Shown here one piece after another: positions 4,405-29,880 of a stretch of 38,513 bases of DNA. Where the stretch lies: IMG/VR virus record IMGVR_UViG_3300025914_000474, positions 1 through 38,513 of that record; one strand, written 5' to 3'. Positions within the stretch are counted from its first letter, which is position 1; each line of letters begins with the position of its first letter. The position numbers and the translations under genes are program-made. This stretch comes from a virus. Under the pieces are notes generated by a model. That model was not told the DNA's origin, did no database searches, and worked only from the letters and a program-made list of their open reading frames with translations.

Positions 4405-4450
4405 ATCCCGGCTTAGAGAATAGCCAGCAGAGCGATACTGCAGCCGGGAT
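4405..4450 (+). repeat. 46-nt bulged stem-loop element, copy 1
   Basis: Outer stem ATCCCGGCT (4405-4413) pairs with AGCCGGGAT (4442-4450). A 13-nt bulge follows on the 5' side, then inner stem GCAG/CTGC closes a 7-nt loop. It begins 4 nt after the preceding stop codon and ends 14 nt before the transposase ATG. There is no T-run, so it is not a standard terminator. Same length and architecture as the copies at 9092, 9401 and 10199. Confidence 0.85.
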
Positions 4451-4464
4451 CATTAACCCATAGA

Positions 4465-6447
4465 ATGAGGATACTGGATAATATATTGTTTATTGAATTT
4501 GCCGAAATGGAGCTGTGTGATGTTCCACGCCGGACAATATTATCATGGGACAATGTTAAGGATCCATCTGATAAGCGTAAAGTGCTGATCCGCTATGATA
4601 AGTTAAAGGATAAATACCAACATGCTATCATTAAAAAGTTTGGTGATCCTTATTTGTATTGCCACAACCAACTCATTAAGCAATACCTGAGAGTAGATGT
4701 TAAGGCAATAGATTTCTTTTCGAGCGTGTACAGGGTTGCTGATGGATCTGCACTAAAGCCAGAGCGCCAAAGGGAGTATGTTACATGCGCCAACTGGCTC
4801 AACTTACTTATAGAGCTGGATAATAACTGGAGCAATTGCAAAAAATTCTTAGGTATGGCTGCTAAGCCAGAGCTGTATGATGCAGTTATAAAGATTTTTG
4901 AGGCTGAGGTAATTGATCTGCCTAAAACATATCAAACCATTAAGCGCAAAATAGCTGATTATAAAACTGAGAGTTATTACTGCCTACCATCTAAAAAGTT
5001 TGGCAATAGCAATAGTAAAAAGGTCAAGGATGAGGAAAATCATGCTTTACTGATTGAAATGCTGAGCCATCCAGCTCAATATGATGATACTTTCATCTCA
5101 ATAAAGTACAATAAAGTAGCTGAGCAGGTAGGATTTAAGACAATAACCCCGGTTACTGTAGGTAATTACAGGCATAAAAACGCTGTAATTATCAATGGAT
5201 ACCGCAAAGGTAAAGAGGTTTGGTATGATGAGGCTGGTAAAGTTATCCATCAAAACAGGCCATCAGCTCCACTATTATTGATCAACTCTGATGATAATGA
5301 GCTGGATTTATACTTTCAGCAGGTTAAGGTTAACAAAAAGGGCCATAACGTTGCACATCATTACTACAGACCTACCTTATACGTGGTAATTGATGCCTTT
5401 AACGATCTCATTTTAGGCTATGCAATAGGTGATACAAACACTCAGGATCTGGTTAAAGCAGCTTATTTGAACGCTGCAAACTACGTTAAGCAAATGACAG
5501 GAGGCCGGTACTTCTGGCATCAGATAAAAACTGACCGTTGGGGTATTGATCCCAAAAAGAAAAATGATTTTTCTCAATGGTTTAGCGCTCAGGCAGAGTT
5601 TACACCTACTCAACTAAAAAACTCCAGAGGTAAAGTTATTGAACAGAGCTTTAGAGGCCACTGGAGCAGCAAGCTAAAAGAATTATTCCCGCAAAACTAC
5701 TCAGGGACTAACATAACCAGCAAAGGCAAACTAAATAGAGAGTGGGTTGAATCCAACAAACACAATTTCCCGACCATTGACCAGGTATCTGATAAGGTAA
5801 GCCAGTTCATTAATGCCATGAGGCAAATTGAAGTTAAAGGAACTGGCAAAACCAGAGAGCAGGTTTGGCGGGATGCGTTTATGACAATGCAGGAAAGCAA
5901 AAAACGTCTGATCAGTGATGAGCAGCATTTTAATCTCCTGGGATATACACATTTCAACTCCTATAACAACCGCATAGAGAGCAATAGAGTTACCAAAAGC
6001 GGATTAATGCCGACCATAAACGGCCAGCAATTCATTTTTGAAGTGCCTAAAAATATGTTTCTGGATACCATTGGCACTGAGGTACACATCAAATATGATC
6101 CATACGATATGAGCCAGATCCTGGCTGTAAGTAAGGACGAAAAACTTAAAATGGTTTGCAATCAATATGAGCGGATGCCAATGGCAATTGCTGATTACAC
6201 ACCAGATACTCCAGCAAAATTAAACAACCTTATTGGTGAGAAAATAAGCCATACTAAGCAAATAGCTGCAGGTAAAGAGCAGCGTTTAAACACCCTTAAA
6301 AGGATGCAGATGGATGCAGAGAGCGCTCTCAGAGCGGGTGTAGTGGTTAAGGAGCTTAAACATTCAGCAACCAGGATTTCAGAGGGTGATTTTTCGAGCT
6401 ATGAGGAGGTTGAGGAGGATGATATTGATATCAGGGATATGATGTAA
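4465..6447 (+). CDS. MuA-like DDE transposase
   Basis: 660 residues, close to MuA's 663. It cuts and joins the phage ends to target DNA for integration and replicative transposition. The retroviral-integrase-like core shows a candidate DDE triad: Asp310 (LYVVIDAFNDLILGYAIG), Asp357 (IKTDRWG) and Glu393 (KVIEQSFRGHW), the last in the IExxFR context typical of MuA. An N-terminal DNA-binding region and a C-terminal acidic tail (EEVEEDDIDIRDMM) follow the MuA plan; in Mu the C-terminus contacts MuB and ClpX. The MuB-like ATPase gene is next, 59 bp downstream. Confidence 0.93.
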   Translation: MRILDNILFIEFAEMELCDVPRRTILSWDNVKDPSDKRKVLIRYDKLKDKYQHAIIKKFGDPYLYCHNQLIKQYLRVDVKAIDFFSSVYRVADGSALKPERQREYVTCANWLNLLIELDNNWSNCKKFLGMAAKPELYDAVIKIFEAEVIDLPKTYQTIKRKIADYKTESYYCLPSKKFGNSNSKKVKDEENHALLIEMLSHPAQYDDTFISIKYNKVAEQVGFKTITPVTVGNYRHKNAVIINGYRKGKEVWYDEAGKVIHQNRPSAPLLLINSDDNELDLYFQQVKVNKKGHNVAHHYYRPTLYVVIDAFNDLILGYAIGDTNTQDLVKAAYLNAANYVKQMTGGRYFWHQIKTDRWGIDPKKKNDFSQWFSAQAEFTPTQLKNSRGKVIEQSFRGHWSSKLKELFPQNYSGTNITSKGKLNREWVESNKHNFPTIDQVSDKVSQFINAMRQIEVKGTGKTREQVWRDAFMTMQESKKRLISDEQHFNLLGYTHFNSYNNRIESNRVTKSGLMPTINGQQFIFEVPKNMFLDTIGTEVHIKYDPYDMSQILAVSKDEKLKMVCNQYERMPMAIADYTPDTPAKLNNLIGEKISHTKQIAAGKEQRLNTLKRMQMDAESALRAGVVVKELKHSATRISEGDFSSYEEVEEDDIDIRDMM

Positions 6448-6506: not shown

Positions 6507-7376
6507 ATGACAAACGATTCAAAAATTAAAATTAAAAGCCTGCTGCAGGATTTTGTATCTGGATTTAGCAGCCAGGCAAAGGCTTCAAAGGCCCTAACTG
6601 ATGTATCTGAGGGCACAATATCTCAGATCCTAAATGATAAATGGGCGCTAATTGCTGATCGCATGTGGATAAACATAGGTAAGCAGGTAGGCTTTGAGGC
6701 TGGCAACTGGAACAACGTGCCAACCAATAACTATAAAAAGATTAAAGAGCTTTTAACGGATGCAAAGGATCTGAGCCGGGTTCATGCTATTACTGCAGGT
6801 GCTGGTTGGGGCAAAGATACAGCAGCAAAGGATTTTGATAATGAGAACGACAATGTTTATCTGATCAATTGCGGAGATTACTTTAACAGGAGGTATTTTA
6901 TGATAGATCTACTCCGTAAAATGGGATTAGATACAAACGGATCATTGCCAACCCTGGTGGAGCGTGCTGTTACTGAAATTAACAGGGCGGTTAAGCCTAT
7001 CATTATTATCAATGAGGCTGATAAGCTGCCTGATTCTACCTTATATTTCTTTATCACCATTTACAACCTGTGTGAGGGCAAATGCGGTATTGTGCTAATG
7101 GCAACCAGGGCGCTGATTGACAGACTAACGGTTAACGGTGTACCTCGCAATAAAAAGGGATATCCTGAGATTTTCTCCAGGTTAGGCAGCAAGTTTATTG
7201 AGTTGCAACGGCCATCCAGAAAAGATATCACCATGATCTGTACTGGCAACGGAGTAACTAATCCTGATACTATAGCTGAGATATGCAATAGCTGCCTTAA
7301 CGTGAATGGAGATCAACGCAGGGCAAAAAAAATGATCCAAAACAAAGCAGAAGTTAAGGGAGATCTTGCAGCATGA
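6507..7376 (+). CDS. MuB-like transposition ATPase / target-DNA activator
   Basis: 289 residues. Residues ~1-65 form an XRE-like HTH (SQAKASKALTDVSEGTISQILN), as in MuB. The AAA+ core follows with a P-loop-like TAGAGWGKDTA at 96-106 and a hydrophobic Walker B strand, KPIIIINEADKL. The P-loop is off-consensus: the residue after Lys103 is Asp, with Thr next. MuB binds target DNA in an ATP-dependent way, delivers it to MuA and confers target immunity. Its position directly after the transposase supports the call. A CCACAATAAAA word ends 10 bases before the ATG. Confidence 0.88.
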   Translation: MTNDSKIKIKSLLQDFVSGFSSQAKASKALTDVSEGTISQILNDKWALIADRMWINIGKQVGFEAGNWNNVPTNNYKKIKELLTDAKDLSRVHAITAGAGWGKDTAAKDFDNENDNVYLINCGDYFNRRYFMIDLLRKMGLDTNGSLPTLVERAVTEINRAVKPIIIINEADKLPDSTLYFFITIYNLCEGKCGIVLMATRALIDRLTVNGVPRNKKGYPEIFSRLGSKFIELQRPSRKDITMICTGNGVTNPDTIAEICNSCLNVNGDQRRAKKMIQNKAEVKGDLAA

Positions 7377-8561: not shown

Positions 8562-9086
8562 ATGGGAAAGACACGCCAAAAGAGGGTATTACTACCAAAC
8601 ACAATTACTAAAGCTGAGGCTGAGGAGGCATTTGCAGATTATGCTCAGTCAGATGCAAAGCAGCAACAACTTACCTCTAAAATGGATGAGGCTATTACAA
8701 AAATAAGAGACAAGTACGCTGCAGAGATCAGTGAGCTAAGCGAAAAAAAGGAAAGCGCATTTGAGATAATGCAAACCTATGCCGAAAACAACAGGGATGA
8801 TTTTGGAAAGAAAAAATCTATGGATTTAACGCATGGTACAATCGGTTTTAGGACTGGCACTCCAGCATTAAAAGCAGCCAAAGGCTTCACCTGGAAAAGT
8901 ATCACGGTATTATTATCTAAGGGGTATCCTGATTTCGTAAGACAGGTTACTGAGCCAGCTAAGGATAAGATACTGGCAGATCGCCTAACACCGGGCACAA
9001 GGGTTATGATGGCTGAGTGCGGTATAATAGTAGATCAGGCAGAAACATTCTTTGTAGAGCCTAAAAAGGAGCTTGTAGAGGCCTAA
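8562..9086 (+). CDS. Mu Gam-like DNA-end-protecting protein
   Basis: 174 residues, the length of Mu Gam. Residues ~15-80 form a long charged helix, then a compact domain with KKSMDLTHGTIGFRTGTPALK, which matches the Gam family pattern of an L-hydrophobic-GxIxFR strand pair after the coiled coil. Gam is a Ku-like dimer that binds double-strand DNA ends and blocks host exonucleases such as RecBCD/AddAB. The early-operon position after A and B matches Mu. Confidence 0.87.
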   Translation: MGKTRQKRVLLPNTITKAEAEEAFADYAQSDAKQQQLTSKMDEAITKIRDKYAAEISELSEKKESAFEIMQTYAENNRDDFGKKKSMDLTHGTIGFRTGTPALKAAKGFTWKSITVLLSKGYPDFVRQVTEPAKDKILADRLTPGTRVMMAECGIIVDQAETFFVEPKKELVEA

Positions 9087-9091
9087 TAATT

Positions 9092-9137
9092 ATCCCGGCT
9101 TAGAGGATAGCAAGCAGAGCAGTACTGCAGCCGGGAT
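9092..9137 (+). repeat. 46-nt bulged stem-loop element, copy 2
   Basis: Same plan as copy 1: perfect 9-bp outer stem (9092-9100 with 9129-9137), 13-nt 5' bulge and 4-bp GCAG/CTGC inner stem with a 7-nt loop. It starts 5 nt after the Gam stop and is followed by a CACAATAAAA leader before the ORF at 9161. Confidence 0.85.
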
Positions 9138-9160: not shown

Positions 9161-9412
9161 ATGATTTCATTTTACAAAGCGCCCATTGAACATGGGGAAA
9201 ACCTGCATTATGAAAGGTTAATGCAGTTTGCAGAGGCGGTGATCACTCAGCGCCCTGATTCAAGTTTGCACTCAGTATTAAGTATTCTGAGGACTTACAT
9301 ATCCATAACCCAAACAAAGACAAACTTTCATGCCTCAGGTAGGAAAAACGAGATTGTAATCAAGTCCAGAATAACAAAAAAGCCTCTGGCATTTATCAAA
9401 ATCCCGGCTTAG
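9161..9412 (+). CDS. Hypothetical cassette protein, 83 aa
   Basis: Small soluble protein without recognised motifs. The gene lies exactly between 46-nt element copies 2 and 3, and its stop codon (TAG 9410-9412) is provided by copy 3. Its last residues, IPA, are encoded by the element's first bases. This cassette-like embedding is its most telling feature; function unknown. Confidence 0.6.
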   Translation: MISFYKAPIEHGENLHYERLMQFAEAVITQRPDSSLHSVLSILRTYISITQTKTNFHASGRKNEIVIKSRITKKPLAFIKIPA

Positions 9413-9446
9413 AGAATAGGCTGCAGGTCGTTACTGCAGCCGGGAT
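9401..9446 (+). repeat. 46-nt bulged stem-loop element, copy 3
   Basis: Same 9-bp outer stem (9401-9409 with 9438-9446), 13-nt bulge and GCAG/CTGC inner stem. In this copy GGCTGCAG (9419-9426) can also pair with CTGCAGCC (9434-9441), giving an alternative 8-bp hairpin that competes with the outer stem. It overlaps the stop of the preceding ORF and ends 4 nt before the methyltransferase ATG. Confidence 0.85.
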
Positions 9447-9450
9447 CAAC

Positions 9451-10194
9451 ATGAAACAATTAACATTAGGTAGTTGGTATTCGGGGGGGGTAGATGGGTT
9501 TGCATACGCAGCCTCAGAGCTTGGAATCAAAACCCTATACCACATAGAAAGCAACAAAGATTTATGGAAATATTTAAAAAACACTTATGGATCTGATACA
9601 CCAATACACAGATACGATGGATTTTGCGGAGCCAAAAACCTGCCCTTTACAAACATTATCGCAGGTGGAGATCCATGCCAGCCATCCAGTACATCCGGGC
9701 TCAGAAAGGGCAAAACAGATGACCGTTACCGCTGGCCGGAAATGTTTAGAGGAATTTCAGAGCTCCGGCCCGATTGGGTTATTAACGAAAATGTTGCTGG
9801 ATCAGTCAGTAACATGGTACTCGACCAAAAGATTACTGATCTGGAAAGCATCGGTTACACCTGCCAAGCGTTCAATATACCAGCTGTTGCCGTTAACGCC
9901 GACCATACAAGGCAAAGAATTTGGCTTATTGCCAACTCCAATGTACAAAGATGGGGAGAGTTATTACATTTTGACACTGGATCAATCTTTCAAAAGAGTG
10001 GACAAAAGTATTCATTGGGGGCACAAGGCAATGCTTTTTTACGGTTTGAAAAAAGCGAAAGTCAACCCGCAATTCTCCCTCTTTCTCATGGGATACCCGA
10101 CCACATTACTAAACTTGGAGCGGTCGGAAACTCAATTGTGTATGTCATTCCTATGATAATAATGCAGTGCATTCAACACATTGAAAATATATAA
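9451..10194 (+). CDS. C5-cytosine DNA methyltransferase, possibly phase-variable
   Basis: 247 residues. Motif I region GSWYSGGVDGF (7-17), motif IV AGGDPCQPSS with nucleophile Cys76, motif VI INENVAG (111-117), motif VIII HTRQRIWLIAN (152-162) and motif X LGAVGNSIV (222-230) are all present. It should transfer methyl groups from SAM to a cytosine in a specific DNA word. No nuclease partner is adjacent, so it is probably an orphan enzyme protecting phage DNA from restriction or marking replication. The target-recognition segment between motifs VIII and X is short. A run of eight Gs lies in motif I, and a 189-codon ORF overlaps in another frame. It lies between 46-nt elements 3 and 4. Confidence 0.88.
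   Translation: MKQLTLGSWYSGGVDGFAYAASELGIKTLYHIESNKDLWKYLKNTYGSDTPIHRYDGFCGAKNLPFTNIIAGGDPCQPSSTSGLRKGKTDDRYRWPEMFRGISELRPDWVINENVAGSVSNMVLDQKITDLESIGYTCQAFNIPAVAVNADHTRQRIWLIANSNVQRWGELLHFDTGSIFQKSGQKYSLGAQGNAFLRFEKSESQPAILPLSHGIPDHITKLGAVGNSIVYVIPMIIMQCIQHIENI
9483..9490 (+). repeat. G8 homopolymer inside methyltransferase motif I
   Basis: Eight consecutive Gs encode part of Ser-Gly-Gly in motif I, at codons 11-13. With G7 the frame meets TAG immediately after the tract; with G9 it runs into a stop about 40 codons later. A slippage-prone tract at this position is the usual form of a phase-variable methyltransferase. Confidence 0.75.
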
Positions 10195-10198
10195 CACA

Positions 10199-10244
10199 AT
10201 CCCGGCTTAGAGGATAATCAGCAGAGCAGTACTGCAGCCGGGAT
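10199..10244 (+). repeat. 46-nt bulged stem-loop element, copy 4
   Basis: Outer stem 10199-10207 with 10236-10244, 13-nt bulge and GCAG/CTGC inner stem. It begins 4 nt after the methyltransferase stop and is followed by CCACAATAAAA and the ATPase start at 10270. Together with copy 3 it bounds the methyltransferase as a direct-repeat cassette. Confidence 0.85.
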
Positions 10245-10269: not shown

Positions 10270-10944
10270 ATGGCAACTACAGGTATAAACGATTTTTTAA
10301 ACAAGAAATACAAAGAGTTGGATTTTGATGGAGAGTGGCTGGCCTCCTTTGGTAAGCCTGAGAAAAACTTTAAATGTTGTGTGGCTGGAGCCTCTGGCAA
10401 TGGTAAAACTGAGTTTGTAATTAAACTCACTAAGTATCTGGCCAGCTTTACTAAGGTGTACTACAATAGCCATGAACAGAAATTTAGCAAAAGCCTGAGA
10501 GATGCTTTACACCGCAATAATATGCGTGAAGTAAACGGGAAAGTGGTTTTTGCAGATGGAGAGAGTGTTGAGGAAATGGATGAGCGCCTGAGTAAACGTA
10601 ACAGCCCTGGAGCCATCGTAATTGATAGCCGGGATTATATGAAGCTCACTATTGATCAGTTTGTTTACCTGATTAATAAGTATCCACACAAATGCTTTAT
10701 AGTGATTTGCTGGGCCAGCGGATCTAAACCAAAGGGCTCACACGCTGAGGCCATTGAGTACTGCTGTGATGTAAAGATCCTGGTTAAAGATTTTAAGGCC
10801 TTAATGAGGAGCCGTTTTGGAGGTAACAAGCCCTTTGATATCTGGCCAGATCGTAATAACAAGGCCAAAACCCCGGCAAAAGGTGAGCAAAGCGACCTGT
10901 TTAGTGCCACATTAAATGCAGAAATACCCACAATAAACGCCTAA
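10270..10944 (+). CDS. RecA-fold / AAA ATPase of the early region
   Basis: 224 residues with a textbook Walker A at 40-47 (GASGNGKT) and Walker B at 114-119 (GAIVID). A third strand ending ICWASG (residues ~146-151) may be a sensor. The layout of a single small RecA-like core without HTH resembles phage recombination or replication ATPases such as Sak4-type or terminase-like NTPases, but I cannot assign it to one family. Its place after Gam suggests DNA replication or repair during transposition. Confidence 0.75.
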   Translation: MATTGINDFLNKKYKELDFDGEWLASFGKPEKNFKCCVAGASGNGKTEFVIKLTKYLASFTKVYYNSHEQKFSKSLRDALHRNNMREVNGKVVFADGESVEEMDERLSKRNSPGAIVIDSRDYMKLTIDQFVYLINKYPHKCFIVICWASGSKPKGSHAEAIEYCCDVKILVKDFKALMRSRFGGNKPFDIWPDRNNKAKTPAKGEQSDLFSATLNAEIPTINA

Positions 10945-29191: not shown

Positions 29192-29880
29192 TGGATTTAA
29201 TTAAAATACACGATTTACCTGAGGGCACTGCCATAGCCGATGGCCATGAGTTGCCAGTTTCCACCGGGCCGAACCCTGGAGATGTAAAGCGCTTTTCGAT
29301 GGCAATTTTAAAAGCCTGGATCATTGATTTTATTACTCCCCTTTTCACCGGGATCACGCAAGGCCCTGCCGGGCCTGCAGGCGCTCCAGGCGCTCAGGGT
29401 ATTCAGGGGCAAAAAGGTGACAAAGGTGATAAGGGAGATAAAGGTGATCAAGGTATTAAGGGCGACACTGGCCCGGCTGGATCTGTTGGCATACAAGGCG
29501 CAAAGGGTGACAAGGGCGATAAAGGCGATCAGGGTGCTCAGGGCGTTCAGGGTTTAAAGGGTGACAAAGGCGATAAGGGAGATAAAGGGGATCAGGGAGA
29601 GCGTGGCGCTGATGGAGGCATCCCGCCTGTAGAAATCCCTTTTGCAGCTGAAACCCCGTTGCCTATAGAATTGACTGATTTTCAAACCACGTATGAGGCA
29701 TTTGGTGCATACCCTGATATTATGGTGATATACACCTCTGGCCCAAATGCCGGAGATGAGATCAAAACGGCAACCATAAACAGAAACCCGGTTGCATCAC
29801 CTACAACGGTTACTATTAATGCAGCTGACTCAGGCTCTGATACCACTGATTTTGACATCATTATAATTATTAAATCTTAA
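29191..29880 (+). CDS. Collagen-like Gly-X-Y repeat fibre protein
   Basis: 229 residues. Residues ~58-143 are about 28 Gly-X-Y triplets (GPAGPAGAPG, GDKGDKGDKG, GERGADGG), which should trimerise into a triple helix. A short head and a ~85-residue C-terminal domain flank it. Phage collagen-like proteins act as fibre stalks. It precedes the large fibre. Tandem DNA repeats make length variation by recombination likely. Confidence 0.85.
   Translation: MDLIKIHDLPEGTAIADGHELPVSTGPNPGDVKRFSMAILKAWIIDFITPLFTGITQGPAGPAGAPGAQGIQGQKGDKGDKGDKGDQGIKGDTGPAGSVGIQGAKGDKGDKGDQGAQGVQGLKGDKGDKGDKGDQGERGADGGIPPVEIPFAAETPLPIELTDFQTTYEAFGAYPDIMVIYTSGPNAGDEIKTATINRNPVASPTTVTINAADSGSDTTDFDIIIIIKS

Follow-up and report, generated by a model that had tools for sequence, protein, structure and literature searches.

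A G8 tract in the C5-cytosine methyltransferase gene of a Mu-like Bacteroidota phage, a probable contingency switch

Among the early genes of a Mu-like Bacteroidota phage is a solitary C5-cytosine methyltransferase gene with a G8 run, a probable slipped-strand contingency switch. The window, the whole stretch of DNA analyzed here (W), is the 38,513-nt virus record IMGVR_UViG_3300025914_000474, read on a single strand; L-numbers denote related loci from scans of viral and genome contigs. The original prediction that the G8 is an ON/OFF switch gains from recurrent tracts in the gene's own clade and from frame-changing length alleles in a related gene, but the six tracts of the clade, all in frame, speak against it. 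The features of the window that bear on this question are:

4465 to 6447, plus strand: MuA-like transposase, by tblastn to phage records annotated as MuA-like transposase
6507 to 7376, plus strand: MuB-like AAA ATPase (PF13401, E 9.6e-11)
8562 to 9086, plus strand: Mu Gam-like protein (PF07352, E 1.2e-30)
9402 to 9446, plus strand: 45-nt hairpin repeat, just upstream of the methyltransferase
9451 to 10194, plus strand: C5-cytosine DNA methyltransferase, 247 aa (PF00145, phrog_363, relatives)
9483 to 9490, plus strand: G8 tract, in frame, in motif I, coding S-G-G-V
9578 to 10156, plus strand: nested +1-frame open region of 192 codons, a conserved second protein (phrog_1008)
9587 (ATG) to 10154-10156 (stop), plus strand: nested ORF of 189 aa within that open region
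9594 to 9596, plus strand: TGA that would end the methyltransferase frame with a G9 tract; its T lies 7 bases past the A of the nested ATG
10200 to 10244, plus strand: 45-nt hairpin repeat, just downstream of the methyltransferase
10270 to 10944, plus strand: phage ATPase (phrog_6891), a syntenic neighbour used as bait for finding related prophages

The methyltransferase matches PF00145 with an E value of 1.3e-19 (71.2 bits, cut-off 22) and phrog_363 with 4.6e-35, and scores 42.3 bits against the NCBIfam dcm model TIGR00675, below the NCBI cut-off of 100.65. The best Foldseek matches of its low-confidence model are M.HaeIII and M.HhaI. Besides motif I, the protein has PCQ, ENV, RQR and GNS, which we take to be motifs IV, VI, VIII and X. 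The tract codons, TCG GGG GGG GTA, specify the glycine turn of motif I, and the S-G-G coded by the tract are conserved residues. In the AlphaFold model, with a mean pLDDT of only 57, they form the turn between a strand (residues 5-9) and a helix (12-23). The PF00145 match and the in-frame G8 bear out the proposal that the tract lies in the SAM-binding motif I of a phage methyltransferase.

As in SSR phase-variable genes, the ORF contains a homopolymer of at least 7 and a one-unit change shifts the reading frame. In silico, the G7 version stops at once, as had been predicted, and yields a 13-aa product. The G9 version yields 48 aa and ends 34 codons past the tract; an early stop had been correctly foreseen, though its distance had been put at about 40 codons. 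Both one-base slips truncate the enzyme, in agreement with the claim that slippage switches it off, but the off state is more than simple loss, since a +1 gene is nested in the same DNA.

The neighbours of the methyltransferase in the early region, a Gam protein, an AAA ATPase and a MuA-like transposase, mark the element, a Bacteroidota prophage, as Mu-like; carriage by a Mu-like prophage had been rightly proposed. The transposase scores 18.6 bits against PF09299, under the cut-off of 21.7, and the ATPase is presumed to be MuB-like from its position. The hairpin repeat occurs in four copies between early genes (4406-4450, 9093-9137, 9402-9446 and 10200-10244), with fold z-scores of -2.8 to -3.7. 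At locus L026 the neighbour ATPase is 96% identical, the methyltransferase is absent and a single repeat occupies that place; therefore the methyltransferase behaves as a cassette. The proposal of a phage methyltransferase switch had overlooked these flanking, cassette-like repeats.

Other features of the window were also noted. Inverted 41-nt AT-rich repeats of the TTTAAACGGTGTTTA type lie near both phage ends (2962-3002 and 37334-37374), with scattered internal copies; these are possibly binding sites, putatively of a transposase or repressor. Positions 115-2776, with transglycosylase and nitroreductase genes, are probably host flank to the left of the prophage. A collagen-like 9-nt repeat region at 29370-29615 lies within a 229-aa ORF.

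A lone G8 in 38.5 kb is unremarkable, hardly more than chance, and its presence alone means little, because G8 or C8 also turns up in 126 of 300 sequences of the window's length simulated under a first-order Markov model. There is no other G or C run of at least 7 in the whole window. When the methyltransferase was recoded synonymously with phage codon usage, a G run of at least 8 arose in 0.2% of 20,000 draws, under a codon null that took no account of the +1 overlap, which constrains sequence; the window's tract falls outside that overlap. The same null gave 0.3% for L004, 1.6% for L003, 2.3% for L002, 6.6% for L012 and 14% for the G7 of L022.

The clade of the window's gene has eight distinct members (W, L002, L003, L004, L005, L012, L013 and L022), 49-86% identical to W. 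In the tree its nine rows (eight distinct) group with 100/100 support. L006, whose gene equals that of L005, and L021 and L038, which have the same sequence as L013, were dropped before counting, as were the refetched contigs L007-L011, L027-L029, L042-L046, L053, L085, L086 and L190. A G run of at least 7 is present in six of the eight genes, five of them 8-9 long and one G7, at four different sites, and all six genes are in frame:

W and L004: G8 in motif I
L012 (G8) and L022 (G7): loop following motif I
L003: G9 just before PCQ
L002: G9 in the C-terminal tail
L005 and L013: no tract

L002 is the closest relative of W (86% identical) and has its tract elsewhere, and therefore tracts turn over. 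A slip in the L002 tract would alter the C-terminal tail only and would not switch the enzyme off cleanly. Tandem repeats of 9 and 15 nt are densely packed upstream of the L002 methyltransferase, at L002:4249-4626. Across the four long records (W, L002, L003 and L004), G runs of at least 8 on either strand fall exclusively in the methyltransferase gene; the L004 record has one further G7 outside it. Within this group of four, dN/dS is 0.17-0.34.

Five of the 8 clade genes have a G run of at least 8; among 793 background ORFs of at least 200 codons, 6 do. By length, there are 5 such runs in 5,946 clade gene bases against 11 in 1,346,669 background bases (Poisson P 2.2e-9, and 1.3e-7 with the window left out), tests that overstate the odds by counting each related gene as an independent trial, with by-gene and by-record counts that overlap. 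The background consisted of 95 loci of related Mu-like elements, with nine near-duplicate viral loci and L085 and L086 excluded. The 12 neighbour prophage regions from Chitinophagales, all without this methyltransferase, contain no G or C run of at least 7. The recurrence among relatives thus provides strong evidence that the tract exceeds what chance would be expected to give.

For close relatives, a single-protein scan of genome contigs gave no matches, and a profile scan then gave five loci. Searches for the methyltransferase added no close clade member from Chitinophagales (the order of L022; 396 genomes), the Mucilaginibacter family (that of L025; 399) or the order of L021 (Crocinitomicaceae; 42). 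Homologues in plasmid and phage collections were all under 60% identical. A pattern scan for other lengths of the window's tract site returned eight stretches, with a methyltransferase relative only on the L004 contig.

Length alleles were seen in a related gene. A survey of 399 Mucilaginibacter-family genomes gave 14 related prophage regions, one of which, L073, has a divergent C5 methyltransferase about 26% identical to that of the window. The two halves of the L073 enzyme are consecutive in PHROG 363 (54-136 and 135-319) and in PF00145 (1-81 and 82-191), and they lie in different frames that join at a G8. A survey of 80 relatives of L073 in viral contigs placed all tracts of this type at one site:

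L073: G8, out of frame
L195 and L196: G9, out of frame
L194, L197, L198 and L199: G10, in frame
L201: G9, in frame
L202: G10, out of frame
L193, L200 and L203: no tract, in frame

At the gene level L194 equals L197, L198 equals L199 and L195 equals L196, leaving six distinct tract alleles, three in frame and three out. A G or C tract of at least 8 is present in 9 of the 12 loci with at least 58% identity (L073 included) and in none of the 70 others. The frame is broken at 4 of the 9 tract-bearing loci and at 1 of the 73 that lack a tract (L265), a difference with a Fisher P of 3.4e-4 when near-identical loci are counted separately. The L194 and L195 genes are 99.6% identical, one in frame and the other not, and L194 differs from L196 by a single indel in 4,068 aligned bases, located at the tract. 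Taken with the recurrence in the clade, these length alleles, which belong to the related gene and differ between contigs, support switching by slippage well for the gene type. The 3-kb flanks of L193-L203 gave no match to 18 other window genes, and these loci probably belong to phages other than the window's.

The methyltransferase overlaps a second conserved frame. The +1 frame stays open over the last ~190 codons in each of the 12 family members compared, a length never reached by synonymous recoding for 11 of them and reached in 0.4% of draws for L019 (2,000 draws each); the +2 frame is at its null in open length. Between W and L012 the overlap is 61% identical in the +1 protein and 58% in the enzyme (null 26, sd 2.9), and between W and L022 it is 56% and 55% (null 24, sd 2.7). 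By these comparisons the overlap is conserved in the +1 protein to the same degree as in the enzyme. Over the initial 55 codons, +1 identity matches its null in L005, L012, L013 and L022. The close relatives L002, L004 and, to a slight degree, L003 exceed it, as expected from recent descent. The +1 identity fades with distance, to 21% against a null of 18 for L019. The +2 identity in the overlap exceeds its null, yet is lower than the +1, because two overlapping constraints fix most bases.

An ATG lies within the first 14 codons of the +1 open region in all eight clade members. The nested protein of the window matches phrog_1008, named DNA methyltransferase, with an E value of 1.2e-15, and no Pfam or NCBIfam family matched it. 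A search for solved relatives gave a best E of 0.041, which is not credible, and its AlphaFold model (mean pLDDT 39.9) is too poor for use. In Paenibacillus phage Lily the +1 frame was annotated by the depositors as an internal gene (LILY_63 in LILY_62), and in Paenibacillus phage Bloom two overlapping methyltransferases are annotated (BLOOM_57 in BLOOM_56); a literature search listed no paper on the overlap. On comparative grounds the overlap is old, and it is partly annotated already. Overprinted and conserved over ~190 codons, the nested gene merits functional study of its own.

The position of the tract relative to the nested frame varies. In W, L004, L012 and L022 the tract is upstream of it, and a slip cuts the enzyme short while the nested gene stays intact. 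The tract of L003 and of the L073 type is at or inside the start of the +1 frame, and a slip enters that frame; in L003, L073, L195 and L196 it fuses the SAM-binding N-terminal half to the +1 frame (234 and 231 aa). In L002 the tract is beyond the end of the +1 frame, and tract-free family members also keep the frame open. The equation of a slip with the enzyme being off thus stands for the enzyme but had missed the conserved +1 gene and the slips that lead into it. It is possible, though rather unlikely, that the tract switches between the two overlapping genes, trading methyltransferase for nested protein. In such a scheme the G9 slip of the window would end the enzyme just after the nested ATG, where terminating ribosomes could restart. 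This stop-start overlap is absent from L004, in which the corresponding slip ends earlier.

Eight Gs make a short tract, which counts against a switch, and the G8 could be a neutral by-product of the Gly-Gly codons in motif I, with no switching. The frequency of G8 or C8 in the Markov sequences, the in-frame state of 6 of 6 clade tracts and the conservation of the S-G-G residues are as such a by-product would have them. Nevertheless it is a decidedly unlikely explanation when set against the codon null of 0.2% for the window and 0.3-14% in the tract-bearing relatives, the four different sites in the clade, the confinement of tracts of at least 8 to the group of loci with at least 58% identity in the L073 survey (9 of 12, against 0 of 70) and the frame-changing alleles of relatives.

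Those alleles might themselves be assembly or homopolymer sequencing errors, as they come from metagenome contigs and one genome, and homopolymers are error-prone. But L195 and L196, contigs whose metagenome ids differ, show no difference over 4,003 bases and share linked substitutions beside the tract that set them apart from the G10 haplotype, and the recurrence of tracts is independent of any frame call. Programmed slippage of RNA polymerase or ribosome, by which one allele would give two products and DNA length variation would be secondary, draws on the long conserved +1 frame and on the L003 and L073-type tracts, where a slip makes the fusion proteins. In the window, however, both slips meet stops before the shared frame, the L002 tract is located after the +1 frame ends, tract-free members keep the frame open, and the G9 and G10 alleles of relatives differ in frame at the DNA level. 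We consider programmed slippage very unlikely and error as the source of the out-of-frame alleles more improbable still.

With the contingency switch as the preferred reading, G8 would specify the complete enzyme (ON), and one G gained or lost would leave at most 48 residues (OFF). Methylating and non-methylating members would then coexist in a lysogen or a phage burst, provided that the window's tract slips at a useful rate, and the benefit may be bet-hedging between hosts. Methylated phage DNA would escape cytosine-blocked restriction; unmethylated DNA would escape 5mC-dependent (McrBC-type) restriction and spare the host. If this is true, a stochastic epigenetic switch resides on a mobile phage instead of a chromosome, mixed methylation is predicted in lysogens and lysates, and a trade-off is predicted between the two kinds of restriction.

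Tracts were also observed in other phage genes. The phrog_12600 family (L273-L352; first seen at L075:12023) comprises PPCRAWG proteins that are weakly like a DNA methyltransferase PHROG and rich in G/C tracts. A run of at least 8 is present in 13 of 77 non-redundant genes against 3.05 expected under the codon null, and the flanks have 2 runs in 272 kb. In one member, L307, halves in different frames are joined at a G8. At L105:8146 there is an in-frame C8 run in the SPPCQ motif of a phage protein resembling C5-type methyltransferases. A different phage has a G16 run at L020:7289, in the gap between two genes and ~575 bases beyond that phage's methyltransferase; being intergenic and in another phage, it was rejected as part of the same phenomenon.

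Sorensen et al. in 2021 reportedly described polyG phase variation of receptor-binding proteins in Fletchervirus. Two articles describe such variation of receptor-binding proteins in Campylobacter (Fletchervirus) phages, where phage genes with hypermutable polyG tracts give mixed phage populations, as is predicted here (PMC11868660, PMC11959909). The Fletchervirus tracts are in a receptor-binding protein gene, and the host itself has many polyG switches, whereas the gene here encodes a DNA methyltransferase of Mu-like Bacteroidota phages. Bacterial phase-variable methyltransferases (mod genes, phasevarions) are well known, and they too have a simple repeat in the methyltransferase ORF whose slips switch modification on or off (PMC11868660, PMC13076061). 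The mod genes belong to bacterial restriction-modification; here a solitary phage C5 enzyme has a second gene nested in it. PamA, a Staphylococcus aureus prophage methyltransferase and in that respect alike, is reported to alter host traits, and the available portion of that article does not mention a repeat tract for it (PMC13076061). In the accessible portions of the open-licence literature, no phage-borne phase-variable methyltransferase was found in print. Paenibacillus phages Lily and Bloom share the +1 nested frame in a methyltransferase, but their nested gene is annotated without function. Should the proposed switch be true, phage polyG variation extends from host recognition to DNA modification.
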